Shown here: one piece after another, positions 35,467 through 64,000 of the stretch
Layout of the letters: every line of letters begins with the position of its first letter
Position numbering within the stretch: position 1 is the first letter of the stretch
Source of the DNA: Dermatophagoides farinae
Lineage: Eukaryota; Arthropoda; Arachnida; Sarcoptiformes; Pyroglyphidae
DNA: 64,000 nucleotides
Direction of reading: 5' to 3'
NCBI RefSeq assembly: GCF_024713945.1
Contig: NC_134680.1
Coordinates: forward strand, 5,949,501-6,013,500
Position numbers and translations under genes: made by a program
The notes under the pieces: model-generated
Databases searched by the model: none
What the model was told of the DNA's origin: nothing
The model's input: only the letters and a program-made list of their open reading frames with translations

Positions 35467-35502
35467 TCAAAGGTGTCTTAAAAATCTACAAAAAATTAAA
35501 AA

Positions 35503-35620: not shown

Positions 35621-35648
35621 TGAAAGAGCAGGGGTGATTCTCAATTCC
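35621..35648 (-). promoter_or_regulatory. Conserved element upstream of 5S gene 2
   Basis: Reverse complement of the element at 34903-34930; the shared segment before both 5S genes runs through GAATTGAGAATCACCCCTGC. Confidence 0.45.
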
Positions 35649-36149: not shown

Positions 36150-36283
36150 GGCCGGTTAGCTTAGTCGGTAGAGCGTGGTGCTAATAATTTGAATAAATGG
36201 TAAATTCAAGATTCTGATAATTAGTGAAGTTAAGAACTAATTAAGTGACGCCAAGGTCGTGGGTTCGATCCCCACACTGGCCA
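36150..36283 (+). tRNA. trnI-AAT: tRNA-Ile (AAU) with a 61-nt intron
   Basis: Exons 36150-36186 and 36248-36283. Joined, they give the classic eukaryotic tRNA-Ile: acceptor GGCCGGT/ACTGGCC, A-box TTAGCTTAGTCGGTAGAGC, anticodon stem TGGTG/CGCCA with loop CTAATAA (anticodon AAT at 36183-36185), variable AGGTC, and T-arm GTGGG-TTCGATC-CCCAC. The intron follows position 37. T-runs just downstream (ATCTTTTTG) end transcription. The AAU isoacceptor is normally intronless in vertebrates; the intron-bearing one there is UAU. Confidence 0.88.
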
Positions 36284-36575
36284 ATCTTTTTGCTTTTTAG
36301 TTTAATTATTGATGATTGATTGATTGATTGAAAAAAAAACTTAGTTGAATTTGGATTGAAATTAACATTTTTTTATTCTGAGCAAAAAAAAAAAATAAAA
36401 TTCAGACTTCGATCCCCACACTGGCCAATCGTTTCAATTTTTGCCTTTTGTTCAATTATTGATCGATGATTGATTGAATGGAAAAAAACTTGGTTGAATT
36501 TGGATTGTTGGGCCGAATTGAAATTAACATTTTTTTATTCTGAGCAAAAAAAAAAAATTCAAACTTCGAACACGT
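36284..36575 (+). repeat. Tandem repeat units carrying a tRNA-Ile 3' tail
   Basis: Sequence following the tRNA (AATCTTTTTG... TTGAATTTGGATTG... AAATTAACATTTTTTTATTCTGAGC(A)n...) is repeated in tandem. The first unit ends at 36408-36427 with TTCGATCCCCACACTGGCCA, exactly the last 20 nt of the tRNA. The second unit runs to about 36575, where it breaks off at ACTTCGA. A third unit lies at 40322, on the far side of the inserted NCAPG copy. Confidence 0.75.
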
Positions 36576-36748
36576 CCTTTATGAATGGCATATAAAAAAC
36601 CGTTTTATAACAAAAGCTCGCGCGCTCTGTCGAACTTTTTCTTTTTTTTCATTTTAGCTCTCACTTTTTCGTTAGTTTAATATACTTTTCATCAATTTTT
36701 ACTTTTATCATTTTCACCATAATTACAATTATTATAATTGTGTTAGTT
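36576..36748 (+). promoter_or_regulatory. Probable promoter and 5' UTR of NCAPG copy A
   Basis: 173 bp between the interrupted tRNA-tail repeat and the NCAPG ATG. It contains TATAAAAAA (about 36590) and a GC-rich island in AT-rich DNA, CTCGCGCGCTC (near 36615). Whether the same sequence precedes copy B cannot be seen, because the window stops at its second exon. Confidence 0.4.
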
Positions 36749-39700
36749 ATGGCTCAAAATTCAATCAATTTCAATGTTGAATCATTACGAAATGAATTGG
36801 CCAAAATTTTTAACGAATCTCAGCATTTAAAAAATTCTAAAAAAAATGTCAAAGAATTTATGAAAATCTATAAATCATGGGTATGTTTTATTGATGATGA
36901 TGATGATGATGATGAAATCTTGATAAATGTTCTAAAATCCAATCTTCTAATTATATTTAGTTTATCGATAATGAAAATTTTGAAAATTTTATGGCAACAT
37001 TTATTGAAATTATGAAAAATGTTTTGGTTTGTAACAATTCATCACCATACACAAAACGTGCATTAGATTTTATTGCATTAATATTCAAAGAGATAATCTT
37101 TTTCGAAGAAGAATATGAAAGAAAACGTATTGATAATGTAATTGCTCGTGGTGATGAAACAATCAATTCTGAAATAAATAATGATGCAAGTGATTTTGAT
37201 GATGAAATTGGTGAGGAGTGTTTTGATCGTGACAAAACTATTATCGATACACGTTTTATTTCAGAACCAACCACCGTAGATTTATTTATACGAAATTATC
37301 TGCTAAAATTTATTAAAGCTGATGATGTATTTGTACGTCGTAATTCTGTATTGCTTTTAAGAAAAACGATTGATAGTCTTGAAGAAGTGGATGAAAATAC
37401 ATTTGCTGAAGTATTGAAAGAACTTCGTAAACGAAGTATTGATAAAGACAAATGTGTTCGTTCATTAATTATGTTGTGTTTACGAAAACTTCAAAATATT
37501 AATAATGATGATAATGATGATGATGAAGCCATAAAAATATTGAAATTCCATCTACAATATGATCCTGATTCATTTGTTCGTTCGGTTGCAATGAAAACGA
37601 TCGGACTTTATTCCAATACAATCGAAGTCATTTATAATGCAACACGTGATATAGATGATGTCGTTAGACGTTTAGCATATCTAAAGATTGCTGAAAATAG
37701 TTGTGCAAATAATTTTTCTGCCAATGATCGTTTACAATTATTGATCAATGGCCATACTGATCCTAGTAATCAGATAAATAATATTATCATTAAGAAATTA
37801 TTACCAACTTGGATTTCTGATGTTAACGATGATATTATTCGATTCTTGGAATATTTTGACATACGTAACGAAACAGATTTTTTCAATACATTATTGGATG
37901 ATTATTTTCAATCATTATTGAAAATTGTTGAAAGAGATGATATCACTGAATTCCATCAATTGGTATTTCGTTTTAAACAAAAATGTATGAATGAACATAA
38001 ATTTCCATCGATAATTTTACCAAAAGAAGAATGTGTTTATTTGTGGTATAGACTTTGTAATTTTTCAAAAGAAAATAATATCACCTATAAAAAATCAATG
38101 CCTATTTCACAAAACAATGATTATGATGATGATAATGCTAATGGTGAATTATCACAACGGCAAAATTTCATCATCAACGATCTATTGGATGATATTTTTC
38201 CCGACATTCCTGTTTATTGTGATTACATTGAAAGGTAATGATATAAATAAATTGTTTATTTTTATAATAATTTGAAAAATAATAAATTTCCAATTTTTTT
38301 TCCATCCCTACCATTTAGTTTTGTCAACAATACTATTTCGTTGCATAGCCAACAGAAGAATGATGATCAATCACAATCTTCTAAAATTGTTTTTCGTCAT
38401 AAAGAATTGAATTTCATTTTTCAACAATCACTTAACATTGGTAAATTGTATAAAATTAGCGATACAGCACAATGGAATCGTATTGAACGAACATTTCGTT
38501 CAATCATATTGAATGATGATCTCTATACAATGCTCAATGATTACATAGAACCAATATTTATTATTTTCAATAATTATTTTCAAAATGATTGGCAACAATT
38601 ATTGGAATTGGCATTAGATTTGATCAATACTATCAATTTGCCTGAATTACATTGTGATCGTATACAAACACAGTCACAGTCTCAGCCAATGAATAGTGAT
38701 TATCAATCACAAACAAATGAACAACAATTGATACCAACATCACAATTGAATCCACAAGAAAGAATCGAAACGGTAAGTAAATGATAATTTGTTTGTTTAT
38801 TTAATTTTACTTATTCCTTTCCTATATATGTGGTGAGAATAGGATCCAAAAATTTTGGAAAGATGTATCAATATTTGTAATTCATTTCTTCATGTTGGTG
38901 GACCAAAAAATTGCGATACATTATCAAGTCTACGTGGATTGGTCAATAAACTTGTATTACAAAATTTAGCACATCCAGAAAGTGAGAAAATTCGTTTATT
39001 ATCGGTAAAAGCTTTGGGCAATTATTGTTTCCAATCGGTTGTTACAATCAATTCATTTCTCAAAGTGTTCATTGAAATTCTTAAAGAAGAAAATTATCTA
39101 GATGCTAGAGTTGAAGCACTAAAATATATATTCGATTTTGTTGGCTTTTATGGTTTGAGAAAGATAAATTTTGTTGATTCAGACAATTCAAGCATTCGTA
39201 ATCAATCAAACAGTATGAATAACAGTCATGATGTTTCAAATCGTTATGAAAACTTTTTCGAATTTTTTTCGGAAATGTTATTGGATTTTTTGGTGGAACC
39301 ATCTATGGAACCGGCTATAATGAAGAAACGTCCAAAAACTCGTATCGAATATGATCTATTCGATATAGCGGTTCGTGGTCTATGTAAAATTCTTTACATT
39401 GGTCGTTTTAGTTCATCGGATTTTCTTGCCAAATTAATGATCATATTTATTACTTATAAGAATATCACACCCGATACAAAATATTTTCTACGAATATTCT
39501 TTCATCGTTATAGTGAAAATATTGAAGCCTTTTTTGATCATTTCAAAACAAAAAACAGCCCATTCAATGATGCATATGTTCAATGTTTCAAGATGTTAAT
39601 GGAAAACGATGTAACTAATTTGAATTCATATGAAATGGTTGTCGATATGGTCGATGCTTGTACAAACGATGATCAACGTAATAATTTGGTTAGTAAAGCA

Positions 39701-40189
39701 ATGGAAATATTTACATTGACATCAGAAAAAGATTTGATTCATTTGAATTTGAAATTTATTGATCGAATCATTGATTATAAATGTATTGAAAAATTGGATT
39801 TATTGGATTTAATCAAACAATTTGATGAATATCGACAACGTTATCAAAGAAACAATAATACAGTCCGAAGCAGACAGGATAAATGTATTTTATTATTCAA
39901 AAAAATTATACAAAATCTACAACTAGCATCACAAGGTAAAAATCAATCAATCGTAGAGAATGATGATGAAAATAATCCACGTACACAGCGATCATTATCA
40001 TCAATAACAACAACACCAATACAACAACAACGGAAACGACATTCAATTGAAAATGTAAACACGAATCAAGAAATCGATGTTACTATTGTTGATGATAATA
40101 ATGTTGCCAATGGTGATGATGATGATGATAATCATGGCATTTCCGATTTGGACGATGATGATGAAGATAATGATTATAATGATGATTGA
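36749..40189 (+). CDS. NCAPG: Condensin complex subunit 3 (CAP-G), copy A
   Basis: HEAT-repeat subunit of condensin I, which compacts mitotic chromosomes and binds DNA together with the kleisin NCAPH. Four coding exons: 36749-36880, 36961-38234, 38319-38772 and 38843-40189, giving 1,068 aa (human 1,015). All splice sites are canonical, with introns of 80, 84 and 70 bp. HEAT-type blocks include FVRRNSVLLLRKTIDSL, SFVRSVAMKTIGLYS and DVVRRLAYLKIAEN. The Cnd3 C-terminal domain begins near LERCINICNSFLHVGG and includes LHPESEKIRLL-like HPESEKIRLLSVKALGNYC. The tail is acidic and repetitive. The gene is open throughout and nearly identical to the inverted copy at 60765-63998. ATG 36749 is chosen over an upstream GTG. 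Confidence 0.93.
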
Positions 40190-40227
40190 TTTAATTTTTT
40201 TTTCATTTTTAATCTAAAATAAAAATA

Positions 40228-40321
40228 TCAATTCTTTTTCTTCTTATTTTGTATAGATTCTTTTCTTTTTCGACGTTTATCGATTTTTCGTTTTCGTTTA
40301 TCACCACCACCCATTAATGAT
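40228..40321 (-). pseudogene. Truncated 3' end of RPP38
   Basis: Reverse-strand reading gives SLMGGGDKRKRKIDKRRKRK and then the rest of the RPP38 C-terminus and stop (TGA at 40230-40228). It corresponds to the last part of the intact gene at 59552-60724, with three Gly codons where that gene has six. Upstream coding sequence is absent: homology ends at about 40321. It shows that this arm was copied from the right-hand locus. Confidence 0.88.
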
Positions 40322-40430
40322 GCAATTTGGATTGTTTGGCCGAATTGAAATTAACATTTTTTTATTCTGAGCAAAAAAAAATAAAATTCAGACTTCGATC
40401 CCCACACTGGCCAATCTTTTTTCAATTTTT
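40322..40430 (+). repeat. Third tRNA-Ile-tail repeat unit
   Basis: TTTGGATTGTTTGGCCGAAT ... ATTCTGAGC(A)n ... ending with TTCGATCCCCACACTGGCCA at 40394-40413, in the same orientation as the units at 36284-36575. It abuts the end of NCAPG arm A directly, so arm A is bracketed by this repeat. Confidence 0.75.
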
Positions 40431-40616
40431 GTTTTTATTTACAAAATGATTATCAATGCAAAAAAAAAATGTTTATTTTACAGGCATAATGATGGTATAT
40501 AGTATATATGTGGTCAATGTGGATGAAAATAATAAATACTTGTGGACAAAAAAAAATAAAATAAAATAAATAAACCAAAGTGAAAAAAAAAATTTCAAAT
40601 TCAAAGAAATGAAAAA

Positions 40617-43453
40617 TTATTGATAAATGTAATCATTTGGAATGAAATAATTAAACATTGTATACAATAATCGTGGATACCAATGTATACCAATCGGTAA
40701 TGATGGCGATGGCGATGGCGATTGATCAGATTGTTTTGTCGTCCTCCTAATAATTAATTGGCTATGATGTACATGTAATTGTTGGGATAAATAATCACCA
40801 AATTTGATAAATTGATATAACCAACGAATCGGTATGAATGATAAATGGCTTAATTGTTGGCTATTGATTATGGCATAACAAGATGCAACAATATTGTTTA
40901 CAACAATTGTACCGGTTACTGTCAATGGGGCATAGATTCCTTTGGATTTTTTCGTACTTATACGTATGATACGTTCCAATCTTGGTGTTGTTTCTGCCAC
41001 TGCGGCTGCTACTGATTTGTTTTGATTATCAGATTGATTCATGACCACAAATAAATATTGATTCATTTCAATTTTCGATACAAATTCTTCATGTTTATCA
41101 TCAATGTTTCCTGTGTCCGATATGAATAATAAATGTGATGGTGTGGCCGTAATCATTCGACCGAATTCGGTTTCAATTTCATAATATAACCGTTCAATCG
41201 ATGGATTACGATCTAAAAACATTATAATGGAACTATATTCTAGATGGCCAGTCGCTGGATTCATTGTCAATATTTCATCACCAATACGTAAATTATCGAT
41301 ATTTATAGTTTGACCATTGTGGCCAATAACAGTGCTATTTTGATCGAAACATCCACCATTACGAGCTGATTCAGATTTTTCTATAAATGATGCAACAAAA
41401 CGAAACAAATGTTAAAATTTTTAGCAATTTATCGATAGATAATCAACAACAACAACGACAAAAACCAATAACCAATTGAGAGACCGGAGACAAATTATAT
41501 TGTCGTGGACAAATGACTATTTTTTTTCTGATAAAATCAAAAAAAAAACAACAAATCTTAATGGTCGATCATCATAATGTTTGTTTGCTTGATTTATTTT
41601 TATTATTAATTAAAATGCAATTTTGTTGCAATCAATGTGGTGGTGGTACAACATAAAATTTTATGTGAATTAAATTTGTTTTTTTTAAATGTGAATTCCG
41701 GCCATGAAACAAAACCAAAAAAAAAAAAAAAAATGTCAATCGTCTGCGGTGGTCGTCGTGAATACACAGACATCATGTCATCACCATATAATATATCGTC
41801 AACAATCAAATCATACTAAACATTCATCAACATCGACATTATCTCATCATTTCTATTTTCATTTCCAATGTCATCACCAGTTGTGTCGGTTTTGATCGAT
41901 CGATCAATTGAATGGCAATGGCAATGGCAATGACGATGATGATGGCGGCAAAAAAAAAAAATTTTCTTTCTTTTTTCTTTGTTTTTTTTTCTTTTCAAAA
42001 GAAAATTTGAACAAATCACCATCATCACATCATCATCATAATCATTATAATGATATGATGATAATGATGTGGTATTTAGTCTTGTGTGGTGGTGGTCATC
42101 ACAATCATTCATCCGTTTTTCTATAAAAAAAAATAGAAAATTCGGACACTGACAACAAATTGTCATTGATGGAACGTGTGTGTGTGTGTATGCTCGTCGT
42201 TTTCCCCTACTCTTCCGTCCCCCGTATATAATGAATTAAGATTTGAAAATTACTTTTTTTTTCTTCATTGGAATTGATCTAATCTAAAATCTTAAAGTAA
42301 ATAAATAATTTGGTCATTCGCGGTGTGTTTGTTTGTTTGTTTCAGTGTGTGTGTATTTGTGTGCGTTAATTCGACATACACACACACACACACCGCAATA
42401 ATCATCATCATTCAACATTGTTGGAATCACTAATCGAATGAATCGAATTGAATCTATCGACGAAAAAAATTTCCAAACTTGCAAATTTATATTCACACAA
42501 GTGATGGATGACTTTTAAAATTTATTTATTTATAAATTGAAAATGAAAAGTAAATGAAAAAGGAAAAAAAAATTAAAACTGTGTTGTTCATGTTTGAGGT
42601 CGTCGAAAGATTAGCTTTTTTTCTGCTTCTTTTTCTCAAAAAAAAATGACCATCACTTATTCTCAATACAGGGAGCTAACTATCAAACTATCTAGCTCGA
42701 ATGAATCTATCTCGCGTGTACACACACACAGAGAAAAAAAAGGAAATCGGATTTAAAATTTTTTTGTTTTCGTTCAATTTTCAAAATCCGATCATTTTCA
42801 TTGTTTTGTTGCGGCGATTTTTTTTTTGGTTCAAAACAAACAAACAAACAAACCAACGAAAAAAAAATCATTTTGTCCATTTGGAATAATGAATGAATTC
42901 AATGGTGAACAAAAACAAAAAAACAACAAAAAAAAATTCATTCAAATTTGACAATTGAAAATTCCATTCTATTCTGTAATCGTATTACACAATCACACAA
43001 AAAAATAAAAAACAACGACAACAAGAAGTGTCATTTTGCAATCAAATTTTTTTTCACAAAAATAGAAATTACAATTTACCTGAATAATAACCCTATACCA
43101 TTACTGTGTTTGTTGAATGAAAATCAATTATCATACTCTCTCTCTCTTGCTCACTAACTTTTTGACCGGTAATAATAATAATAATAAAAATGATAATCGA
43201 TTATATCGGTGGGTAAATTCTTTTTCTTTTTTTGTTTATCTCGACCATTACAGTACCCAAAATCAATCGATCGATTGATTGCCTTGGTTGGACAAAAAAA
43301 AAATTTGTCACCAATTGTAATCACAGTGTGAGATAAAACACAGTAAACAGAATGAAAATTATTTTTTTTTTTCGTCATTTTTCCATTTCAATCATTTGTT
43401 GTTGTTGTTGTTGTAATCATAATAAAATAATTTAATTTGTCCACAACAACAAC

Positions 43454-43490
<37 letters not shown>

Positions 43491-46400
43491 CGACAAACAC
43501 ACAAACCCAAACGGGCAATTTTATGGCCTCAATTCACCATTGTAATGTAATTTTTTTTTCGTGAATGAAATTTGTCGTCAAAAACAACAACAACAACGAC
43601 AACAATAATCATTATCGATTGATTATTTTTATATCGATATAAATCAATAAATGAATAATCGATCAATAAAACAATTGTCCACAATGTCATTATTTCTCTC
43701 TTTTGGGTTTTAATTGATTTTTTTTTGTTTTTTTTTTGGCAATTGAAATTGATCATTTTTTGTTTTGTTTCTCTTACCTGATTTCACTGAACAATGAATA
43801 TGAAAACGTGATTCATAATAAACCCAATCGAAACCGGCTTCAACGGCTAATCTGGCCAACATACCATATTTAGAACGATCACGATCACTGGTTGTTATAT
43901 CGACGGCACGGCCTTCATAATGTAATGAATTTGATGCATGTGAACCGTCTTCATCCCAGCCTTCGGTTACACGTAATCGTACACCAGGCCATTGATTCAT
44001 TACCGATATGGCCAATGTATTTAGTTTTTCTTTTAATCTCTGTGGAGAAAAAACAAGAAGAAAATTTCAAATCAATCAATTTTCGATTCATAAAAAAAAA
44101 AACAAAAAACAACGACAGCAACAAGTCAATTCAAATGTTAAATTATGACATTTTTTGTTTCTTGTGACATTTTTATCTTTTTTTTTCTCATCTCTGATCG
44201 ATTGATCAAATTGAATGTTGATAATTGATTTTGTTGTTGTTGTTGTTGTTCTGTAGTTGGTGGCGGAATAAATTAGTTAAAAACAACAACAACAACAATG
44301 TAAAAAAAATGATATGATATGATTTTTTTTTCATGGATAAAAATGACAGCATCATTAATCATCCGTCTTTTTGTTGTTGTTACTGATAATCCAAAATGAT
44401 AATGACGACTACGATGAGAATTAAATTTCATAAAAAAAACGAAACAAATCATTCAACTAATTCATTGTGACATGATCATGATCATGATCATCATTTGGCA
44501 CCTTTTTTGTCTCATCGATTGATGTTATACCGGCTATACTTTCAATGTTTATTGATTTGATTAGATTTCAACAAGGATTATCTTCAATAAAAAAAAACAA
44601 CAACAACAACAACAACACACACAGAGCAATACAAAGAACAGGTGTCGTTTATGAAATGAAAGTAAAAATGTACAGTGAATTCCAGAAATTTTGTCCAAAC
44701 AAAACAAAACAAAACAAAAATCAATCACAACCACCCGGTAGTTGGTGTTTTGTTTCCTCTCTCTCTTTCTCTTTCTCATTCAAACATTGTCATATGAAAA
44801 TGATTTAATGACTAATGAATGAATTAAACCTACCGAATATTTGTATATGTGTGTGCGTGTGTGAACAAACAATCAAAATTAAGAAAAAAATTCTTTACAT
44901 TCTACACACTACACACACACACACACACACAAAGTACAGGAATCAATATTGTTGTGCTTCTGTTGTTGTTTACACACACACACACACACTTTTTTGTTGT
45001 TGTTTATGTTTGTACATTACATTATCAACTTTGTTGTTGTCTTTGTAGTTTGGGTTTATCTTAAAACAACAACAACAACAACAACAACAACTAGAAATGA
45101 AAATTAAAATGACAAACAATTTCCAGTGTGTGTATGTGTGTGCGTATGTTTTGTCATACAGAACGAAAAAAAAATTACCTGTATAAATATACCGTGAAGA
45201 TTAATATTTTTATTTTTCACAATAAAATAAAAGAGAAATATGCCGAAACAAACAAACAAATGTTGATGGTGTATTTAGTGAATAAAAATGCAAATGAAAT
45301 GACAAAACGTTCACTTACACACACACACACACACACACTATTCATTAAGGTATTTTGATTGGATCAAATAAATATTTTGCTTTTTCTGTCATTCATTCAT
45401 ACATTTTTTCAGATTAGTTTTGCTTGTGTGTGTGTGACATATGTGACATTCATTTCATTCTGTTTTTTTTTCGGGATTAATTTTTTGCTTTGTTTTCTTT
45501 TTGTTGTTGTTGTTGTTGTTCAGATCTGCTTATATTTCATAAATAAATTGTGTGTGATCACTGAATTCTGCATATATAGAGTATAGTCAGTGTTTTCAAT
45601 TCTTTGTTGGCTAATAATAATAGCCGGAATAAGAATTCAATGTGGAACAAGTAGAAGTTTATTATCTCAAAATATTCGGCAGAATTTTTTTCTTTTTTTT
45701 CAATTATCTATTGGCCAAAAACATTTGGACAACAAGTGTTGTTTGCACTAAATTGAATTTATCAATCAGAAGATTTATTGACTTTTGTTGTCCAGTTGTT
45801 GTTGTTGTTTGCTGAATTTTTAAATTTCTGCTGTTGTTGTTTAAAAATTCAAATCAAGTTTAGTGAAAATGAAATAAATGAATAAATAAATAGTTGAACC
45901 TGTACTTTTGCATTCTTGACCTGGTATATTGACCTGAGAGAGAGAGAAAAAAAAAGATAGAAAAGGTCAAAGTGGCTAATATTCTTATTTATTCAATGGA
46001 TAATGGTAATAATCACAACAACAGAATCAATAATTGATTGGAAATTACCAAGAAAAATCTTTCGATGAATTTCAAGTGTTTGTTATTGTTGTGGTTTTTG
46101 GTTGCAATGTGTTTGCAAACAAATTCAAATGCAAAAAAAAAAGAAAAATTTGAAATTTTTTTTCAAACAAAATTCAAGTGCATTTTTTGTTGTTGTTGTT
46201 GTTGTTGTTGATTGAATCGAATGACCTCCTGACACCTGTCAAAATATTCCAATTCCACCATATTACTAAACTGGTTAATTTAATTTTGTTTTCAACAACA
46301 ACAACAAAAAATTCACAAGCAAACAAACAAACAAACAAAAAATTCATGCAAATCAAATTCTTATTCATCTCATTGAAATTAGCCAAATTAAATTAAAAAC

Positions 46401-49400
46401 TTTGTCGCAACAAAATGCCGAAAAAAAGTAAAAAAAAAAAAATTTTCTGTCTAACGATTCATTACCCGAGACCAATTGCAGGTATACATAACACACACAC
46501 ACACACACACATACAGACATTGCACCAAAGGTAATTTCACGGACCTAGGACCAAAGAGACAAGATACGAAAGCAAAACGAAAAAAAAAATTCAATCGAAC
46601 CGTGAGAAATTTTTTTTCCCGTTGTTGTTGTTGTTGTTCGTATTGGAAATTCTTCCTACGGTGCCATGAGCCATAAAACACACACAAACACACACACAGA
46701 ATGGTTGTAATCAATAACTTTCTCTTCTAAAAATTTAAATTCCAGAAAAAAAACTTGGACAACAACAACACAAAAAATTAATTGTCAATAGCGGCAACCA
46801 GAGAAAGAAACCCAAAAGACCTAAAAATTTATATGTTTATGACCACCAATACATATCACAAACGTTTGTTTTTTTTATGAATTGAAAGTGATTATCGATC
46901 AATGATGATGATGATGATGATGATGACCATTATCATTATTATCATTGGCCACTGGGTGTCTATTTTATTCGTTTGAATACTAAACAAAAGAAGAAAAAAA
47001 AATGGTGGTGGGAGTATGTGCAATGGATGTGTAGGATAAAAAAAAATCATTATTTTGGAATGCAAGTTTCTTACCATCCAGTTTTTTTTGCAAGAATTTT
47101 TTTTTTCATTCTCAAAAAAGAAAAAAAATTTCCAATGATAAATGATTGAATTTACGAAATCAATGGTTGAATGAATGAATGAATGAATAAACCACCATTA
47201 CCATTACCACCACCTTAATCAAACTATCATCATCATCATCATCAACAACAACAACAAGGATATGATGGTTTAAACTAACTATAAAACCGTACACATATAC
47301 ATCGTGCATCGGATACAAAAAAAAAAACATTCAACAGGCTGCCATTGTGCGTGCATGTGTACAGAATAAATAGGGTGAATTGAAGTAAAATGGTCAAAAA
47401 CTTTTTTTCAGGACCAACTTCAATGAAAAAAAAGAAACACCCAATTTCTTTACTCACACAGCAGAAATATAATTTACCATTTTTTTAAAGGGGGTAGTAG
47501 TAGTATAAGGTGGGAAACGTCTTTCGTCGTCGTCGTCGTCGTCATGAAAGCTGAAGGTGAAACACACACACAGTGTGCACGAGTTTTTTTTCTATTTCTA
47601 ATAATGATTTCTACTACCTACTATTTATCCGAAAACAACAACAACAACAAAAAGTCATTGTGAACAACAACAACAACAAAATGAAAATGAAAATTTCAAA
47701 AAAAAAATTCAACCAAATTTCAATGCAGAAAGAAAAAGATAGAAAAACAGAGTGCACCCAATACTATCATCATCATCACCATCATTTGATGATCGCTACC
47801 TGTGCTGTGCTGTGCTGTGTGTGTGTGTAAATGATGACCACCTAGCTAGATGTGCACATTTGAAAATAGCCATGACCTGTGTATGTGTGTGTGTATGTTT
47901 CTGTTCTTTGAACTTTTTTTTCTTTCATTTAATGGAGCACCAAACATACTAAGAATTTAAGTAAAGTGTACACACTTAAACACCATCATCATCATCATGA
48001 TCAGTGGCTGTGGTGGTGGTCGATGGCCACCACAGAGAATTTTCGTTTTTTTTTTTTGTCGGTCGGTCGGTCGGCCACCATTTGATGATGATGATGATCA
48101 TCATCATCATCAATAGCCATGTAACTTGTTAGCATTAACTTTTCGATCATCATCATTGACGATCATGATGATGATCGAGTTTTTCATCATCAAGGTTTTT
48201 TTGTTGTTTGTTTCGGTCATGTTTTTTGTCCCCCTCTCCTTCTTCTTTGTTGAATTGTAAAATGGAATGAAATGAAATGAAAAATTCAATTTTTTTTCGA
48301 ATGAAAAAAAACTACGACAACAACAACAAAAAAGACCGCTTGACCATTTCTATATGAGAAAACAAAACAAAACGAAAAACTTGCACGAACAAACAAACAA
48401 CAAGAAAAACGAAATCAAAACTATATATCTAACACCAACACCAACAACAACAACAACAACAATGGACCAAATGAACGAAACAAAATTTTTTTCAAAGAAT
48501 GTGACCCTGGCCATCTATCTACTGGTCATGGAAATGGTCAACTACATTATACTCCTTGTTAGTTAATATAGTCCAGTACAGAACGAAAAAAAAATGAAAT
48601 ACCAAGAAACTAGCCATAACCACCAACACCAACACCAACAACACAGCCATTATATCACACTAAACAACACGGATGTTGAATTTTCCTACAACAAAAAAAA
48701 ACAAATCACAATTGATGAACATACTGCATACCAACACCACCACCACCAGTAAAACTGGTGTTGTATATATAGGTGTTAGCCAACAGCAACAAGAAAAAAA
48801 CCCTATAGATGAGGTTTTTTTTTATTTTCATCTTGACTTATAACACCAACAAAATAATGATTTGATAAAAATTCAATGGAAAAAAACAAAAGAACTCTCT
48901 CTCTCTCTCCATCGCAACCAAAATATCACCTGATTATAATAATTTAGATTTACTGGTGGTGGTGGTTATTTATACATTTTTTTTTTTTTGGGCTTGTCAT
49001 ATTTGCTTGTGAACATGATTATTTTTTTTTTCATTCACGAACGAAACGAATAAAACGAATGAAAAAAACACCCAGGTAACAAATTTTGTCCATAAATAAT
49101 AATCAAACTTGAAATATTGAAAGAGATTTGGATGTAAAGAATTTTTTTTCTGGGCATTCATTTTATACCGAATTAAAAAAAAACAGCCGGAATGCTGTGT
49201 TCAAGATACCATACCATATGTCATTTTTTTTTCTGTGTTGTTCTGTTGTTAAATATGAAATGATGATGTTGCTCGGCGGCGGATGATGTGTTGTTGTTGA
49301 GAATTTCATATCTCAAGTTTATAGTTTTTTTTTCTCTCTCTCTCTCTGTTTGTTCGTTCAATTTCCATGATGATTTATTCGGTCAATCAATTAATTAATC

Positions 49401-51971: not shown

Positions 51972-52082
51972 GGTTAATGATGTTGATTATGAATTTTATT
52001 AGTGAACCAAGAATTCACAATGTTTGTGTGAATACAGATCTAAAAAATTAACCTTCGAACTTTATCAATGATGATGATGATG

Positions 52083-52090
52083 TTTATATA
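52083..52090 (-). promoter_or_regulatory. Possible TATA box of hedgehog
   Basis: On the minus strand TATATAAA lies about 112 bp upstream of the first hedgehog ATG (51971). In AT-rich DNA such matches are common, so this is weak. Confidence 0.25.
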
Positions 52091-55000
52091 AATAAAATTG
52101 ATGCTGATCGATTGATTTTGGTTGAGATTTCAAAAAATAAGTTGTGATAGGTGATGAGAAACAAGCAAAGCAAAAAAAAAATAGTTCAAAGTTGAACCAT
52201 ATTGATTTTTGCATTTAAAAAATAATTAACAACGACGACGATGATCATTAACGTTTTGAATGGATGATTGGAATCATTAATGATAATTCATCGATAGATG
52301 ATGATGATAACTACAAACAACAAAACTTTGAATTTGAATCAATTCAATCATTTTACTCCAAAAGTCTGTTGTCGTTTGTTGTTGTTGTTGTGGATTCGAT
52401 TGAAAACAAATCAATTTTCAAACGTCATCATATCACTCAACAAACACATCACACAAAATGGTAACAAGTGACAAAGATTATGATGATGAATGTCGATCAA
52501 AAGAAAAAAAATTGAAATCAATCATGGAACCAGCCAACCAACCAACACACACACACATGCAACAAAACCAGAAAAGAGGAACCAGCTTAAAAAGACTCAA
52601 TAATAATCCAGAAACAAACCAAAACCAAAAAAAAATCACCATCGGTAACCACGAAACACACACTTGAATATTAACCGAAAAAAAAGAAAACCGACACGTA
52701 CAAATAAATCAGCAGAAAGAAGGCAGAAATTTTTTTTCTGTTTGATTTTAACTTCTAAATAAAAATTGTGTTAAACGTCATCGTCTTGGTTTTGCAAATT
52801 TCTTGTCGTCGTAGTTTTTTTTTATTTTGATGTAATGTCTAGGGGCCGTGTAAATATTTACATAAATGAACAAGCACACACACACACACACACACAAGCA
52901 CACCGGTGGTATTGGCTGATTTTGTATTTTCAGAATCAATGAAAAATAAAACAAATTTGGTTGCTAAAAATGATGATGATGATGATGATTATTATTGCTG
53001 CTGTTGTTGATTTTTTTTCTGTATTTTATTTTGCAAGTTAACAAAACAGTTTGTCGGACTTTTTGAACGATGATGATGACGGTGGTGATGGTGGTGATGG
53101 CGGTTTTGATGGTCATAAAACATAACACAAAATAAAATCTTTGTTGTTGTTGTTGTCGAAAAGAATTTAGTTGGTTTTTATCATCACTTTATTAAAAAAA
53201 AAGTGGCCAAATTCATTCATTTAAAGAATTGATGATTCATAATGATTTCAAAGAGCAGAGGAGAGAGAGAATTTAGGTGTGAAATGAATTCAATTATCAT
53301 TCATTCACCTTTTTTTCAAAATGAAGAATTTGTTTTCAGTCTTGATTCAATTCGACAATTGAATTCGATTCTAGGCTAATGATAATGATAATAATAACAA
53401 TCGTCAAATAAACACACACGAACAAGAAAATTTACCTGTATTTTTTTTGCTATCATTTCTACTATTTTGAATGGTTAAATTGTTTTCTTTTCTCTTTTTT
53501 TCTCTCTCTCTCTCTCACTCGTTCTCACTCATTCAATATCAATATCATTCAGTTGTTGTTTTTTTTCATTTCTTCAAAACCTGTTGACAATGTATTTGAA
53601 TCAATCATTATCAACAAGTGTTTTGTTTGTAAAAAAAAATATATAAAAATATTCTAGCCAATGAACTAGCAAATGGTCAAATTGAATGAATGTTGTGTGC
53701 TGTGTGTTATGTATGTGTAACAAGTGAGAAAGGCGTGGCCATCATGATAATTTCACCAATTATGATTGGATATTATTTAACTAGCCACAATTGAATGTGA
53801 ATAGTTCAAGCTCCGCCTGTTTTCTTCTATTTCTAAGCAGCATATATTTGTATATATTCGGGAATTTGGATTGTTGTTGAATAAAATTTTTTCTCATTTT
53901 CATATCAGAATCTTTTTTTACACCAATTGATAATGGATGATTAGAATGTGTACAAGAAAAAAAGAGAATCATCATTCATTCATTCATCTATGCTTCTCTC
54001 ATCGTATTTTTTTTTTAGGTTTAAATTGAAAAATCCTAACAAAAAAAAAAAAGAAATCAAAAACACAAACATACCACCAGTGAATTCCGGAAACTTTTCG
54101 GCTAACCAAAAAACCACCAAATTATAATGATCAAATTTTTTTTTCTCATTGGATAATCTGAAAATCAAACAATGAAAACAAAAAATTCAATTAAAATGTA
54201 AATTTTGTCGTTGTTGTTGTTGTTGTTGTTGAAAAAATTTGTAAAGAATTTCAAAAAACGAAATAAATAGATGAACAACAACAACAAAAAATGAGATAAA
54301 TAGCGCCCGACACACACACACACAGATCGATTTCATTCAAATAATTCAATAAATAGAAAAAAAAATTAATTTGAATCAAATCTAATCGGATTTTCCACCA
54401 CTATATAATGCCGATAAAACAAACATGCTCCTCCGCCCTTCTAGTCCATTTTGACCAGATTTTTATTCAATTTTTTTTATTCAATCAAACAATTTGTTTG
54501 ATCAATATCTAATTCACAACCACCACCGATAATAGTGTGTCACCTATTTAGTGATTGGTCATTTTTTTTAAACGAAAATTCAATTTTTCAGCTCAACAAA
54601 TTCCACAACAACAACAACGAAAAACCGATTATTTGACAATTGAAAACGATAACAAATCGGTTTTCACTAGCAGAGAGAAAAAAAATTTGTAAAGTTTTCA
54701 TGAATGGGGTTTTTAAGCAAAAGAAAAGAAAAGAAAAAAAATTCTTGAAATAACTTGAAAAAGAAACCACCAACCACCTTATTTTCTGATCCAAATTTAA
54801 ATTTGATGATGATCCATAAATGACACACACATACACTCAAAACTTAGGTTGCCGCCGCCACCAACATTTTGTGGTGGTTATATCAATTTTAAGTTGTAAA
54901 CCATCATCATCATCAGCAAATAATAAGTATATATAGATATACAGCTGTGGCTGATCCTGCCAAGTTAGCCATTCAGCTAGCCAGCCAGTCAGCCAGGTAG

Positions 55001-57159
55001 GTCCGAATAAAATTCAATATATCAATATCAATATCAATTTCTCGCTATGGGTGATCTCATCACCCAAACAATAAAGAAAACAACAACAACTTGTTGCGGT
55101 TGGTTGACCTATTGTCTGTGTGTTTGGTCTTCTTGTCAAAACAACAATTTTTTTCCAATACAAATGACAACAACAATAGAAGCACCCACACACACACACA
55201 TACACAGGTATCATTTTTGGTCACTATTTGATTGAATAAAATTTTTTTTTTTTGTTCGAACAACAACAACAACAAGGGACCCAAGTTGAAAATGGTGAAA
55301 AAAAAAATTTTTGAATCGAATCGAATTTGTGTGTTTACAGGTATGTTTTTTTTGGTCGGTTGGTTGATTCGTTGGTTTGCAACCATCACCAATGAAATAA
55401 TATCAATTATTGAACCAAGAAAAAAAACCGACTTGTAATGTCGATGATCATCATCGTTTAATTCAATTTTATTTAGATTTGAAATTGAAATTTTAATTGA
55501 AAAATTGAAATATCTGGAAAATATCGAGTTGACGCCACAAAACAAAACATGTGCGCATGTGTGTGTGTGTGAATTCAATTTGAAAATTTTTTTTTTTTTA
55601 AACGAAAGAATTTCTAGAAGAAAAAAAAATTTTTTTTCTCAAAAAAAAGCTCAACCCAAATATCCTTCAGGCCATCAGATTTCATGTGTCGTTCATGGTG
55701 GTGGTGGTGGTGGTGGTGGCGGCCCTTGTTGGACAACAGAACAGCAATTGAAATTGAAATTTTTTTTTTTTTTTTTTTTGGTACAATTCTTGTATGGACC
55801 ATTGGGTGCACAATACCACCACCACCACCCATCTTTCTTGCTTCAATAAAAAAAAATAATGTGATGATGATGATCATCCATCACACAAAAACACAGTAGA
55901 AATACAATTGTATACCATATTTAAAGTAGCAGCTCATCATCATCATTATTATTATTACCTAAAAATTATTGTTATTATCACCATTATTATAACCAAAAAA
56001 AAAAAAAAAAAAAAAAACGAAAAAAGAAGAAATATTCTAAATGGTAGGGTGCCCAGTCAAAAAAAAACGAAAGAGCCCCTGCTGATTATTATTAGCAGTT
56101 TCTAGTAGTTCTGATTCGTTGATTATAGTAGACAGTGTATATATGCTTCATTCATTCATTTTATTCAATCATCATTTTCACCACCATCACTATTGCCACC
56201 TCTTTCAATTGTCTTTGAATGATCAGAAAAAGAAATTTTAACCAAAATCTAATTTGATCTGATAAGAAATCTTTGAACTGCAAAAAAAAACCACACACAT
56301 GATGATAATCGGGTTTTGATGATGAAAAATCAATGAATACTCGTTCGATTCTAACTAATAGTTATTCTGATTAGAATTATGGCCCAAATTTTTTTTTTCT
56401 TCATCCTATGCGATGGTCAATGATCATTTAATTTGTTGTAATTAAATTTTTTTTTTGTTAATTTAGTTACCCGAATTATATGATTACTAGACGCAAACAC
56501 ACACGCACACACACATAGACAGAAACAGACATTAATAAACAAAATGTTTTTCAACAACAACAACAACAAGAAATTTTACGGCAAAAAAAAACAACATCTG
56601 TACCTGTGTATGTGTCCAAAAAGGTGTCGTCGGCCTTCACAAAAAAAAACTAACAAGGAACAACAAGAATTTCTTCCATCAAAATCATTGAACAAGAGTC
56701 GTAATTTGTTTTCTTCTTCTATTTTTATATATTCAACGACAAACATCGTAAAAAAAATTTGAAATTTTGTTCATTTCGGTTTTGCAGCGCTTGATCATCA
56801 TCATCATGATAATAAAAAAATTTTCGGCAAATTTTTTTCTGGTTTTGTTTTTTGATTTCTGCAAAAAAAAATTACAATGTTTGAATGAATGAATCGATAG
56901 ATGTGGAATGAAAAGAATGTAAATGTTTTATGTGTTCATTTCGTTTGTGGTTGTTCAATGTTTGGCCAAAACATTTACGATTATAGCTGAAGCTAGTCAA
57001 TAAAGGATGGATGAAAAACACCAACCAATCAACCAAACATAAAAACCTCTCAGAGTCATTTAAATAAAATCACAAACGAAAAAAAAACATATTTTCATAT
57101 TTTAATAAATTTGAAAAAGCAAATTGTAAAAAAAAATTCCTAATTATAACAAATACACA

Positions 57160-57160
<1 letters not shown>

Positions 57161-57194
<34 letters not shown>
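57161..57194 (+). repeat. (TG)17 microsatellite
   Basis: Uninterrupted 34-bp dinucleotide run, one of the longest in the window. Confidence 0.9.
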
Positions 57195-57195
<1 letters not shown>

Positions 57196-57439
57196 AGAGT
57201 AGAATTCTGTGAATATTCTTGTTTTTTTTGCAAAAAAAAAAAGAAATCAATCAATCTATGGACAAATCAATCAAATAATGTGCCTAAATTTCACAATAAA
57301 TGAGAAAGAGAGAGAGAGATAAAGAGAAAATTGAAAAAAATTTTTAAATTTTTAATCTGTTACAGCAACAGTGGCCGCAGACTCATTGGTTTCCAATACA
57401 AAACAATGGTTTACATGGATGTTCAAATGATAATATAAA

Positions 57440-58037
57440 TCAATAGGAAAATTTATTCGTTTCTGTACGCAATTTTTCCATCAATTCAGTAATCATTTGA
57501 ATACTGTTATTATATAATTCTTTTAAATGGGCAACTTTATTCCAAAAATTTGGTTGATCCGAATTATCACTGGCTTCTTGTTTGGCCATTCGTAATTTTG
57601 CGCTCAATTGTAGACGATTTTCTTCTTCATCTTGTAATGACATGATCAATGTGGCCAAATAATCATGACCAACATGGCGAAAATATTTCGATACATCAAT
57701 CATACCGTTTGTTATACGTTTAAAATCTTTAGTTGCATCCGTTACTAGTTGACGAAATTTTGTTGGATTACAATTTGATTGATTGCCCATGTAGATTTTA
57801 TATGCTCTATATATTTCGAATAGAGAAAAATCAATAAAAAATTTTTAAAAAAAAACCAGAAATCAATAAAAAAAACCTACTCATCGAATATTTTAAATGA
57901 ATGTTCACGTTCCTCTTGTAATTGGAATACTTTTTGTATCATATGAAATGTTTCGGCATCACAACTCTATTATGATAATGATGATGATTAAAATTAGTGA
58001 ATTTTTTTTTTCTTTTGAACAAAATTTGTATTACCAT
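57440..58037 (-). CDS. Small coiled-coil protein, probably REX1-B domain family
   Basis: Three coding pieces on the minus strand: 58037-58035 (only ATG, then GTAATA), 57966-57881 and 57806-57440, giving 151 aa. The predicted start is M-SCDAETFHMIQKVFQLQEER, continuing EHSFKIFDE-AYKIYMGNQ across a 74-bp intron. The rest is mostly helical: KFRQLVTDATKDFKRITNGM, then LQDEEENRLQLSAKLRMAKQ and a final helix ending in LRTETNKFSY. The layout (an N-terminal Q-x-EE-R helix, F-x-x-Y/F, RQLVxxxTxxFxxI, then a leucine-rich coil) resembles the REX1-B domain proteins (REX1BD/C19orf60), named after an algal DNA-repair gene. The match is from memory and moderate. An alternative start is the ATG in FHMIQKVF (57939). 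Confidence 0.65.
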
Positions 58038-59551
58038 GATTGATTCGGTTTATGTTTCGAATTTCGGAATAAAATCAATGAAAATAAATAAACTCTCTAC
58101 ATATAAATGGGGGCAAAAAAAATGGATTTTATTAGAATATTTATATAGATGGATGGACAAAAATTATTACCAGAATTTAAATTGTTTCAATACGTTTTTG
58201 TTGTTGTTGTTGTTGTTCCCGTTTAAATCCGCAGATGATCCAAATAATGAGTGTGTGTGTGCGAATGGATCAAGTTACTGCTTTTGTTTCGTATGAAAAT
58301 AAACTACGTTGATAATGATGATGATGGAGCAAATAAATAGCGAACAAAGAGAGAGAGAGAGAACGAAAAAAAACGTGCTTTGTTGGCCAATAATGGAACA
58401 ACAACAACAAGTGGCAGTCGAGGTTGTGGTGGTAGCAAACACACAGTGGTAAATAATAATAAAAGTATTGAATTCGTCAAAATGTCGAGAACGAGAAACA
58501 AGAAATATTTTGTTCGTTGCTATGCAAAAAAAAATTAAATGGCAAATAGGAAAAAAAACGACCACGACGACGACGACGACGACAATGATGATGATGATGA
58601 CTTGTCAGACCAGCAAGTCTTGTTTTAGTTTAGTTGGTTTGAATTTGGAAATCGAATCGATTAATTATTAATGGATCAATGTGAATATGAATAATTTGAA
58701 TAATTAAATGCATGCATTAGCCGGCAAACAGACATAAAAACGGCATGGTTAATATATTATCATACACACACACACATATAAAGCAATGGCAGTGGTGGCA
58801 CGACATTTATCAATGTTTAAAAAAAATGATTTAACATTGACTGACAAAGTTTCTTGCTTTTCATCATTTTTTTTATTAACCATTAATGATGACGATGACG
58901 ATGATTTCTGTGTTTAATGTATAAAAAAAATGAAATAATGTTGATGATGATGATGATGATTTCAATATATATCATTTATATGTATTGAACTGTATAGATT
59001 AGATTTTTTTTTTTCATTGATTTCATAGTCATCATTCGACCGATATGATTGTAAAATCGATAGAAGAAGAAGGAGGAAAAAAACGGATTTCATTCTATCA
59101 ATCAATCATTAATCAATAAATCATTGCGGAGCCAAAAGCAAGCACAACAACAACAACAGCAATATATTAATAATAATATAACCGGCTTTAAATTGATTAA
59201 TAAATCTGGATGATGATAAACTTGTTAAAACTTGTTGAGCAAACGTTTTTTCGCTGTTTACAAGTTTTATCCGGTTAATTTATTTTAATGTTTGTATATA
59301 TTAATTTGAAAAACAGAAATGGATAGAGAAATGATTTATTCTGAATTTTAAAATTAGTTCTAAAACTTTTTTTTAAATTGAATTTAAATTGAAGAAATTT
59401 GAATTTTTTTTTTTTTAAATTCAATTCACCTGTTGATCATTATGAAACGTCATCTATGAACAGGGTTTAACATGATGTTTATTTTGTTTGGCTCTTTTTA
59501 TAAAATTCAGGCATTTGGATTGGTTTTTTTTCTGTTTTATAAACAAAAAAA
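58038..59551. other. Intergenic between REX1-B gene and RPP38
   Basis: 1.5 kb between divergent genes, likely holding both promoters. It contains (GAC)n near 58561-58583, (GAT)n runs and (CA)n near 58765. No coding block recognised. Confidence 0.5.
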
Positions 59552-60724
59552 ATGGCCGAAAATGAACCAAAAATATTGACACCAAAAGATAAACAAATAT
59601 TGGATCAGAAAATTCGATCGAAAAAGAAACAATTTATACGTTTTTTACAAAGTAATCAAAATTGTTTACCATATTGTACAACGATTACAAATGAATTTCA
59701 AAAAGAATTGGAAACAAAAATTGAAAAATTGATTGCCAATAAGAAAAAAGAAAAAGACAAAAAGCTTGAAAATGCATTGGAAGAATTTGAAGATGAACCA
59801 AAAAAGTTAAGACAATTGAAACATCAATTGAATCGTAAAGCTATTAAATTTCCTGAAATAATATTCGGTCTAAATGAAACATTTAAAATGATTGAACGTA
59901 AACAAATATCGATGATATGGTTGGAGGAAAAATCATTGGCAATGAATATAAAGAATATCATACAGAAATTATGTGCCGATAATCAGATAATGTGTTTGAT
60001 TTTTGAATTGAAAAATTTAAAAACACTTTTCAATGTTTCTTCATTGGCCATCATGGCTTTCAAACAAACAATAACAGTGGCCGAATCTCAATTCAATGAA
60101 ATCTATTCATTTGTACGCATGAATCGAATGGCAAAACCTATTGAAACACAACCGGATGAAAGTGAAGAAAAATCGTCAGCCAATATTCAAACAACAATTA
60201 AACAAATTATCGAATCAAAACCATTCAAATTAAATACAAATAATTCAAATGATCAATATGGTGAAATGATGAAAAAACGTCTCTTTAATGGTAGCCGATC
60301 GGAATCATTGAATCATCCCGCAAAAGATAAATTGGAATTTGTACGAAATGAATCATTTATTGCATTTACCACCACCAACAATGATGATGATGATGACGAT
60401 GAATATTTTCTTGATTATAACAATAAACAACAATCATTCAAATTGGAAATTGAAATTATATGGCCAGATCAATCACATATTGAACAACGTAGACAATCAT
60501 CAAAAAATTTTGCTATACAATTATATGAATTAGATCAATTTGATGAAAATTCAAAAATTGAACCATCAAAAACAAATTTACAATTTAAAACACCAAAACA
60601 AATCAAAGGACATTGTGATGAATCATTAATGGGTGGTGGTGGTGGTGGTGATAAACGAAAACGAAAAATCGATAAACGTCGAAAAAGAAAAGAATCTATA
60701 CAAAATAAGAAGAAAAAGAATTGA
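59552..60724 (+). CDS. RPP38: Probable RNase P/MRP protein subunit RPP38
   Basis: Single exon, 390 aa. Residues 99-190 look like an L7Ae/L30e-type fold: KFPEIIFGLNETFKMIERKQISMIWLEEKS would be the helix-strand start, then CLIFELKN, LFNVSSLAIMAFKQT at the end. Animal RPP38 has the same plan (GINEVTRALERNELSLVLV..., then ...ALAFKK), and binds K-turns in RNase P and MRP RNA. The N-terminus is lysine-rich with a coiled region (residues 45-95). The C-terminal 190 residues are poorly conserved-looking, ending in a strongly basic nuclear/nucleolar-type tail (DKRKRKIDKRRKRK). Its stop is only 40 bp from the stop of convergent NCAPG copy B, so the 3' UTRs must overlap. A truncated copy of its 3' end lies at 40228-40321. 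Confidence 0.75.
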   Translation: MAENEPKILTPKDKQILDQKIRSKKKQFIRFLQSNQNCLPYCTTITNEFQKELETKIEKLIANKKKEKDKKLENALEEFEDEPKKLRQLKHQLNRKAIKFPEIIFGLNETFKMIERKQISMIWLEEKSLAMNIKNIIQKLCADNQIMCLIFELKNLKTLFNVSSLAIMAFKQTITVAESQFNEIYSFVRMNRMAKPIETQPDESEEKSSANIQTTIKQIIESKPFKLNTNNSNDQYGEMMKKRLFNGSRSESLNHPAKDKLEFVRNESFIAFTTTNNDDDDDDEYFLDYNNKQQSFKLEIEIIWPDQSHIEQRRQSSKNFAIQLYELDQFDENSKIEPSKTNLQFKTPKQIKGHCDESLMGGGGGGDKRKRKIDKRRKRKESIQNKKKKN

Positions 60725-63700
60725 TATTTTTATTTTAGATTAAAAATGAAAAAAAAAAATTAAATCAATCATCATTATAATCATTATCTTCATCATCATC
60801 GTCCAAATCGGAAATGCCATGATTATCATCATCATCATCACCATTGGCAACATTATCATCAACAATAGTAACATCGATTTCTTGATTCGTGTTTACATTT
60901 TCAATTGAATGTCGTTTCCGTTGTTGTTGTTGTTGTATTGGTGTTGTTGTTATTGATGATAATGATCGCTGTGTACGTGGATTATTTTCATCATCATTCT
61001 CTACGATTGATTGATTTTTACCTTGTGATGCTAGTTGTAGATTTTGTATAATTTTTTTGAATAATAAAATACATTTATCCTGTCTGCTTCGGACTGTATT
61101 ATTGTTTCTTTGATAACGTTGTCGATATTCATCAAATTGTTTGATTAAATCCAATAAATCCAATTTTTCAATACATTTATAATCAATGATTCGATCAATA
61201 AATTTCAAATTCAAATGAATCAAATCTTTTTCTGATGTCAATGTAAATATTTCCATTGCTTTACTAACCAAATTATTACGTTGATCATCGTTTGTACAAG
61301 CATCGACCATATCGACAACCATTTCATATGAATTCAAATTATTTACATCGTTTTCCATTAACATCTTGAAACATTGAACATATGCATCATTGAATGGGCT
61401 GTTTTTTGTTTTGAAATGATCAAAAAAGGCTTCAATATTTTCACTATAACGATGAAAGAATATTCGTAGAAAATATTTTGTATCGGTTGTGATATTCTTA
61501 TAAGTAATAAATATGATCATTAATTTGGCAAGAAAATCCGATGAACTAAAACGACCAATGTAAAGAATTTTACATAGACCACGAACCGCTATATCGAATA
61601 GATCATATTCGATACGAGTTTTTGGACGTTTCTTCATTATAGCCGGTTCCATAGATGGTTCCACCAAAAAATCCAATAACATTTCCGAAAAAAATTCGAA
61701 AAAGTTTTCATAACGATTTGAAACATCATGACTGTTATTCATACTATTTGATTGATTACGAATGCTTGAATTGTCGGAATCAACAAAATTTATCTTTCTC
61801 AAACCATAAAAGCCAACAAAATCGAATATATATTTTAGTGCTTCAACTCTAGCATCTAGATAATTTTCTTCTTTAAGAATTTCAATGAACACTTTGAGAA
61901 ATGAATTGATTGTAACAACCGATTGGAAACAATAATTGCCCAAAGCTTTTACCGATAATAAACGAATTTTCTCACTTTCTGGATGTGCTAAATTTTGTAA
62001 TACAAGTTTATTGACCAATCCACGTAGACTTGATAATGTATCGCAATTTTTTGGTCCACCAACATGAAGAAATGAATTACAAATATTGATACATCTTTCC
62101 AAAATTTTTGGATCCTATTCTCACCACATATATAGGGGAAAGGGATAAGTAAAATTGAATAAACAAACAAATTATCATTTACTTACCGTTTCGATTCTTT
62201 CTTGTGGATTCAATTGTGATGTTGGTATCAATTGTTGTTCATTTGTTTGTGATTGATAATCACTATTCATTGGCTGAGACTGTGACTGTGTTTGTATACG
62301 ATCACAATGTAATTCAGGCAAATTGATAGTATTGATCAAATCTAATGCCAATTCCAATAATTGTTGCCAATCATTTTGAAAATAATTATTGAAAATAATA
62401 AATATTGGTTCTATGTAATCATTGAGCATTGTATAGAGATCATCATTCAATATGATTGAACGAAATGTTCGTTCAATACGATTCCATTGTGCTGTATCGC
62501 TAATTTTATACAATTTACCAATGTTAAGTGATTGTTGAAAAATGAAATTCAATTCTTTATGACGAAAAACAATTTTAGAAGATTGTGATTGATCATCATT
62601 CTTCTGTTGGCTATGCAACGAAATAGTATTGTTGACAAAACTAAATGGTAGGGATGGAAAAAAAATTGGAAATTTATTATTTTTCAAATTATTATAAAAA
62701 TAAACAATTTATTTATATCATTACCTTTCAATGTAATCACAATAAACAGGAATGTCGGGAAAAATATCATCCAATAGATCGTTGATGATGAAATTTTGCC
62801 GTTGTGATAATTCACCATTAGCATTATCATCATCATAATCATTGTTTTGTGAAATAGGCATTGATTTTTTATAGGTGATATTATTTTCTTTTGAAAAATT
62901 ACAAAGTCTATACCACAAATAAACACATTCTTCTTTTGGTAAAATTATCGATGGAAATTTATGTTCATTCATACATTTTTGTTTAAAACGAAATACCAAT
63001 TGATGGAATTCAGTGATATCATCTCTTTCAACAATTTTCAATAATGATTGAAAATAATCATCCAATAATGTATTGAAAAAATCTGTTTCGTTACGTATGT
63101 CAAAATATTCCAAGAATCGAATAATATCATCGTTAACATCAGAAATCCAAGTTGGTAATAATTTCTTAATGATAATATTATTTATCTGATTACTAGGATC
63201 AGTATGGCCATTGATCAATAATTGTAAACGATCATTGGCAGAAAAATTATTTGCACAACTATTTTCAGCAATCTTTAGATATGCTAAACGTCTAACGACA
63301 TCATCTATATCACGTGTTGCATTATAAATGACTTCGATTGTATTGGAATAAAGTCCGATCGTTTTCATTGCAACCGAACGAACAAATGAATCAGGATCAT
63401 ATTGTAGATGGAATTTCAATATTTTTATGGCTTCATCATCATCATTATCATCATTATTAATATTTTGAAGTTTTCGTAAACACAACATAATTAATGAACG
63501 AACACATTTGTCTTTATCAATACTTCGTTTACGAAGTTCTTTCAATACTTCAGCAAATGTATTTTCATCCACTTCTTCAAGACTATCAATCGTTTTTCTT
63601 AAAAGCAATACAGAATTACGACGTACAAATACATCATCAGCTTTAATAAATTTTAGCAGATAATTTCGTATAAATAAATCTACGGTGGTTGGTTCTGAAA

Positions 63701-64000
63701 TAAAACGTGTATCGATAATAGTTTTGTCACGATCAAAACACTCCTCACCAATTTCATCATCAAAATCACTTGCATCATTATTTATTTCAGAATTGATTGT
63801 TTCATCACCACGAGCAATTACATTATCAATACGTTTTCTTTCATATTCTTCTTCGAAAAAGATTATCTCTTTGAATATTAATGCAATAAAATCTAATGCA
63901 CGTTTTGTGTATGGTGATGAATTGTTACAAACCAAAACATTTTTCATAATTTCAATAAATGTTGCCATAAAATTTTCAAAATTTTCATTATCGATAAACT
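60621..64000 (-). repeat. Segmental duplication, arm B (inverted relative to 36749-40321)
   Basis: The same segment as arm A in opposite orientation. Its left boundary at about 60621 falls inside intact RPP38, so this is the parental locus. The right boundary lies outside the window. Confidence 0.9.
60765..63998 (-). CDS. NCAPG: Condensin complex subunit 3 (CAP-G), copy B, partial at window edge
   Basis: Exons 63998-62725, 62640-62187 and 62114-60765 are visible; the first coding exon (44 codons in copy A) lies beyond the window, which ends exactly at the acceptor AG of exon 2. The visible 1,025 codons differ from copy A at two residues (NITT for NITP; NDVN for NDVT) and two repeat lengths (five Gln for three before RKR; one Asn fewer in VDDN). 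The proteins of exons 2 and 3 are identical. Splice sites are intact. Function as for copy A. It is convergent with RPP38, 40 bp stop to stop. Confidence 0.93.

Follow-up and report, generated by a model that had tools for sequence, protein, structure and literature searches.

Two near-identical, inverted copies of the condensin gene NCAPG beside Pol III genes in Dermatophagoides farinae

Results

Layout of the inverted repeat

Two near-identical copies of the condensin gene NCAPG lie in opposite orientation, about 20 kb apart, in the genome assembly of the house dust mite Dermatophagoides farinae. The observation is confirmed at the sequence level; it was first made in a stretch of 64,000 nucleotides, hereafter the window. 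Comparison of the window with itself recovered the inverted arms described in the first-pass annotation, with 1,874 nt at 100% identity, 1,218 nt at 99% and additional shorter pieces, and an alignment of positions 36959–40311 with 64000–60641, confined to the window, showed 99.4% identity over 3,363 columns. The window truncates arm B; when further sequence of the same contig was included (coordinates above 64000 are extended coordinates on that contig), the match ran from 34853–40311 against 65979–60641, and beyond a 9-base gap it continued to 40321/60622. By sequence comparison, arm A spans 34853–40321 on the plus strand and its partner, arm B, 60622–65979 on the minus strand, of which 60622–64000 falls inside the window and the remaining 1,979 bases (to 65979) past it. 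The repeat is about 5.4 kb long, larger than first described, and its arms are separated by 20,300 bases. The inner ends originally proposed, 40321 and 60621, were retained, whereas the start of the repeat, placed at NCAPG, had to be moved upstream, where the arms take in a pair of 5S rRNA genes and a tRNA gene. Similarly, the claimed base-for-base identity very nearly holds for NCAPG and for the 5S block, but the rest of the arms has diverged, as in the tRNA intron and the spacer.

From the outside in, each arm comprises two facing 5S rRNA genes, a spacer, a tRNA-Ile(AAT) gene with an intron and two tandem tRNA-tail units, and, innermost, NCAPG followed by the 3' end of an RPP38-like gene. 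Genome searches covered 62,435,336 bases in 22 contigs, in which the window occupies C4:5949501–6013500; the inner flanks of the arms were searched across this whole genome, and the outer flanks were compared with each other. Outside the arms the sequence differs, the match stopping at 34853/65979 and at 40321/60622. The BZW, 5S and hedgehog neighbours recognised earlier were all found in family and Rfam searches. The BZW gene (5MP HEAT and W2 domains) lies to the left of arm A, the hedgehog gene (signal and Hint domains) and a REX1-B-like frame lie between the arms, and an oxysterol-binding protein gene lies to the right of arm B. Inversion of the hedgehog-containing segment between the arms is possible in principle. 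A separate tandem pair was observed at C4:6025788–6030851 (L005:2488–7551); its copies match in two blocks, at 94% and 88% identity, and from the translation we take the genes to be Hsp70-like.

The two NCAPG copies

Copy A (36749–40189, plus strand) has exons at 36749–36880, 36961–38234, 38319–38772 and 38843–40189 and encodes 1,068 aa. Copy B lies on the minus strand, with exons 2–4 within 60765–63998 (63998–62725, 62640–62187 and 62114–60765) and exon 1 beyond the window, at 64079–64210 in extended coordinates; its full product has 1,069 aa. Both genes have four exons, with coding sequences of 3,207 bases in copy A and 3,210 in copy B. The frames and splice sites are intact, as had been proposed, all three introns being of the GT...AG type in each copy and each frame having a single terminal stop. 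The identification as NCAPG was borne out by the Cnd3 domain and by matches to PDB sequences: exon 4 of copy A carries the Cnd3 C-terminal domain (PF12719, E 4.9e-20; score 72.4 bits, cut-off 25.8), and all five distinct PDB sequences matching copy A at E ≤0.001 are named 'Condensin complex subunit 3' (best E 8.5e-17). The introns (3/3) and the 5' flank of the gene are common to both arms, and the 178 bases 5' of the start codon are identical. Since all three introns are kept in both copies, a processed retrocopy was rejected as the origin of the duplication.

At the protein level, the two length changes described previously were found, both of them in-frame (copy B has two extra Q and copy A one extra N), while the substitutions number three, not two, once exon 1 of copy B is added (F8C, P830T and T878N, from A to B). 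Five coding substitutions separate the copies, three non-synonymous and two synonymous, and these are too few for selection on the pair to be judged. Judging from the sequence, both copies are probably expressed, which would raise the dose of condensin G, and there is no hint so far of a new function.

An 801-base NCAPG query returned three DNA matches in its own genome, namely the two arms and a 272-bp fragment on another contig. The Cnd3 profile also matched three places, both NCAPG loci and one on contig C1 (29.9 bits), which, judged from its translation, is presumably a beta-adaptin-like protein. A third full condensin G gene was rejected, the additional profile match reading as beta-adaptin-like and the additional DNA match measuring only 272 bp. 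This fragment, a piece of NCAPG exon 2 that is 93% identical, lies at C3:1847563–1847834 (L006:4564–4835). It is embedded in a retroelement of the copia type, with gag/Pol_BBD on one side and the final portion of the reverse transcriptase domain on the other, and looks like a host-gene fragment taken up by the element. The arms are identical across the stretch that matches it, so the fragment gives no polarity for the NCAPG substitutions. Among the other condensin subunits, CAP-H was found at one locus in the genome. A genome search for condensin II CAP-G2 with PF12422 gave no match, nor did its controls, and PF12717 gave 10 matches, all to HEAT-type proteins, which do not settle the copy number of CAP-D2.

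5S genes, tRNA-Ile gene and tRNA-tail units

In arm A, the outer 5S rRNA gene (34931–35049, plus strand; Rfam RF00001, 104.4 bits) faces the inner one (35502–35620, minus strand; RF00001, 106.2 bits). The 5S block shows 2 differences in about 726 sites between the arms, and the outer edge of the repeat, the 64 bases at 34853–34916, shows 11 substitutions. The spacer (35643–36020) gave no end-to-end alignment with its arm B counterpart (64950–65185, extended coordinates), which carries an additional 5S fragment. Pieces of the 5S block are also present to the left of arm A, at 34245–34338. Facing 5S pairs were observed in both arms (34931–35620; L004:1308–1997), with matches to the block on both strands on contigs C3 and C7; 5S genes are dispersed in this genome, apparently in inverted pairs.

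The tRNA-Ile(AAT) gene (36150–36283, plus strand; Rfam RF00005, 50.2 bits; ARAGORN run with introns) contains an intron of 61 nt, or 63 nt in arm B. Between the arms, this intron (36187–36247) differs by 7 substitutions in 64 columns and by a 2-base length change, and the tRNA exons do not differ at all. The genome was searched with patterns for the 5' half (2 mismatches), the 3' half (3) and the anticodon stretch (2) of tRNA-Ile, and this intron-containing gene and its arm B partner (L004:782–917) were the sole matches, two of two on the arms for each pattern; a reversed control pattern gave three chance matches.

Two tandem units, each consisting of the tRNA 3' tail and its flank, follow at 36264–36569 (plus strand), and part of unit 2, 36497–36569, reappears at arm A's opposite end. 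There, at the inner junction, sequence comparison revealed a third tRNA-tail unit (40324–40468, plus strand). Its bases 40324–40398 are 97% identical to unit 2 of arm B, and its bases 40394–40468, including the tail, are 79% identical to unit 1 of arm A, a level that fits the remnant of an old array at the left locus. Beyond the tail, the score of its match to unit 2 was reached by 4 (arm A) and 11 (arm B) of 2,000 shuffles, and the match to unit 1 was weak (92 and 69 of 2,000); these counts are rough, the shuffles having been made two bases at a time and the third-unit sequence being AT-rich. Across the genome, the tRNA region and tail units matched only the arms, the third unit and 56 bases (86%) on contig C10. 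When 3,829 bases (36555–40383) were removed in silico from arm A, an uninterrupted tandem tail unit was obtained.

The RPP38-like gene and the likely direction of copying

A full RPP38-like open frame spans 59543–60724 on the plus strand (393 aa, stop to stop) and has its 3' end within arm B, its final 103 bases (60622–60724; 84 without the gap) belonging to the repeat. The name RPP38 given to this neighbour is weakly supported: the frame is weakly L7Ae-like (PF01248, E 0.0065, 16.6 bits, under the Pfam cut-off of 22.1), and its best PDB match is 60S L7a (E 0.013). Arm A holds a severed 3' tail of the gene (40228–40321, minus strand), the counterpart of 60622–60724 with the 9-base gap, and the rest of the gene gave no other long match in the genome, the others reaching at most 101 bases at 74–90% identity. 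Because arm A contains a severed piece and the gene is whole at arm B only, arm B is the likely source of NCAPG copy A. At the arm A junction, the RPP38-like tail gives way to the tRNA-tail unit within a few bases, the pattern expected of end joining.

Divergence along the arms

Near-neutral sites, defined as non-coding sites outside the tRNA exons together with synonymous sites, carry 14 substitutions in 417 (3.4%) up to position 36510, against 4 in 1,210 (0.33%) beyond it (Fisher p 4.7e-6); with the tRNA intron excluded, the comparison becomes 7/356 against 4/1,210 (p 0.004). The likelihood change point was located at 36511, with a score above that of all 3,000 weighted random placements; without the tRNA intron, 62 of 3,000 placements reached the score, so that support is then modest. 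The change point falls within 36497–36569, the piece of unit 2 that is found again at 40324–40398 beyond NCAPG. Within NCAPG itself, the 5' part has 1 substitution in 2,291 sites and the 3' part 6 in 1,510 (p 0.018). A single copying event does not predict this contrast; later gene conversion would, and the contrast points to some of it as well.

The genome report gives a heterozygosity of 0.52% for the sequenced D. farinae mites (PMC11074847). The near-neutral divergence of 0.33% over NCAPG lies below this value, which indicates a young copy or one that underwent conversion recently; if rates are alike, it would be younger, or converted later, than the average allele pair. Copy A may accordingly be polymorphic and not fixed. 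The initial proposal, either a very recent origin of the arms or their homogenisation by gene conversion, is broadly supported, and to it we add a likely direction, from B to A, and a sharp boundary in divergence.

Discussion

A probable history of the locus

The history that we favour, with somewhat better than even confidence, is an older inverted Pol III repeat followed by recent DNA-level copying of NCAPG from arm B into the array of arm A. It is preferred because the step in divergence lies in the very tail unit that reappears beyond NCAPG. On this view, the left locus would already have had its own, inverted version of the 5S/tRNA-Ile block. When the tRNA-tail array there broke, the homologous array in arm B would have served as template for the repair, with synthesis continuing across NCAPG and on into the RPP38-like 3' end. 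The stretch copied would be about 3.8 kb long, and its free end would finally have been rejoined to the array of arm A with almost no homology. Against this order of events, the 5S block looks no older than NCAPG, barring separate homogenisation of the block, although the 64 bases just outside it differ at 11 sites, and the 5S pieces to the left of arm A point to a more tangled history there. We infer both the order and the direction of events from signs internal to one genome. Two-step copying and gene conversion are compatible readings, and later conversion may have contributed to the likeness of the arms.

Transfer RNA loci mutate fast. A single event could have duplicated the whole 5.4-kb block, with gene conversion afterwards keeping NCAPG alike or the tRNA surroundings mutating faster, and we consider this possible, though on the unlikely side. 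It would accommodate the patchiness of the identity between the arms, with 11/64 at the outer edge, so few differences in the 5S genes, 7 in the tRNA intron and a near-identical NCAPG, as well as the unaligned spacer and the 5'/3' contrast within NCAPG; however, it leaves unexplained why the divergence step falls in a tail unit that reappears at the inner junction of arm A, and why an old-looking tandem remnant lies at that junction.

An assembly or haplotype artefact, in which a single true NCAPG locus was placed twice, is unlikely, and we give it little weight. According to the genome report (PMC11074847), the assembly was built from PacBio subreads (mean 7,442 bp, N50 9,679 bp) with three assemblers and a Quickmerge merge, and it exceeds in length two of the three other D. 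farinae assemblies tabled there, all of which would leave room for such an error. The same paper states 131-fold coverage, however, at which reads that long could span a 5.4-kb arm. Moreover, the flanks outside both arms differ, the arms themselves differ at a number of sites, and the inner junction between the RPP38-like tail and the tRNA unit has no long shared sequence, unlike a repeat-mediated misjoin. Finally, it is highly improbable that arm A was the source and that copy B landed by the RPP38-like gene and supplied it with a new C-terminal end: the tail, being short and basic, could be new, but about 34 in-frame codons and a stop would have been needed by chance downstream of NCAPG A, and it is the insert in A that interrupts a tandem unit.

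Returning to the copying of NCAPG into an older Pol III repeat, a broader reading that we regard as doubtful is that inverted Pol III clusters serve as recombination platforms that draw neighbouring protein genes across their arms, with the NCAPG copy segregating as a copy-number variant. The duplicate of this core chromosome-packing gene is very young and its junctions are still legible, so that the direction and the steps of its making can be followed. It provides a test case for the tolerance of an additional condensin G copy, and likewise for arrays of Pol III genes as origin points of gene duplication.

Comparison with known systems

Literature searches covering the duplication of condensin genes or of NCAPG, inverted gene duplicates and mutation at tRNA loci listed nothing on this locus by title or opening of the abstract, which is not proof of absence. 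We regard the NCAPG pair as a young inverted duplication of a known type, whose history is readable from its junctions and whose mechanism we infer. The first-pass statement that condensin subunits are normally single-copy was too strong, since King et al. 2019 (PMC6759200) describe duplicated condensin I subunits in insects. As with NCAPG, these are cases of additional condensin I subunit genes in a genome, of insects there and of a mite here. In that study, hits longer than 200 nt at over 98% identity were removed as likely artefacts, and a pair such as NCAPG A and B would therefore be discarded; surveys that drop near-identical copies in this way would overlook it.

The young inverse intrachromosomal duplicates of the human genome, as presented by Bu and Katju 2015 (PMC4546093), resemble the mite pair in being DNA-mediated, in lying on the same chromosome, in including the whole frame and in their low divergence. 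They differ in span, the human duplicates having a median of 36 kb and the mite repeat being much shorter at 5.4 kb, and in their boundaries, which in the mite fall at tRNA-tail repeats and Pol III genes. The CAP-G sequence on a grasshopper B chromosome (PMC5732253) is also an additional copy of this condensin gene; the grasshopper copy, however, is a pseudogene on a supernumerary chromosome, whereas the mite copy is intact and lies 20 kb from its presumed source.
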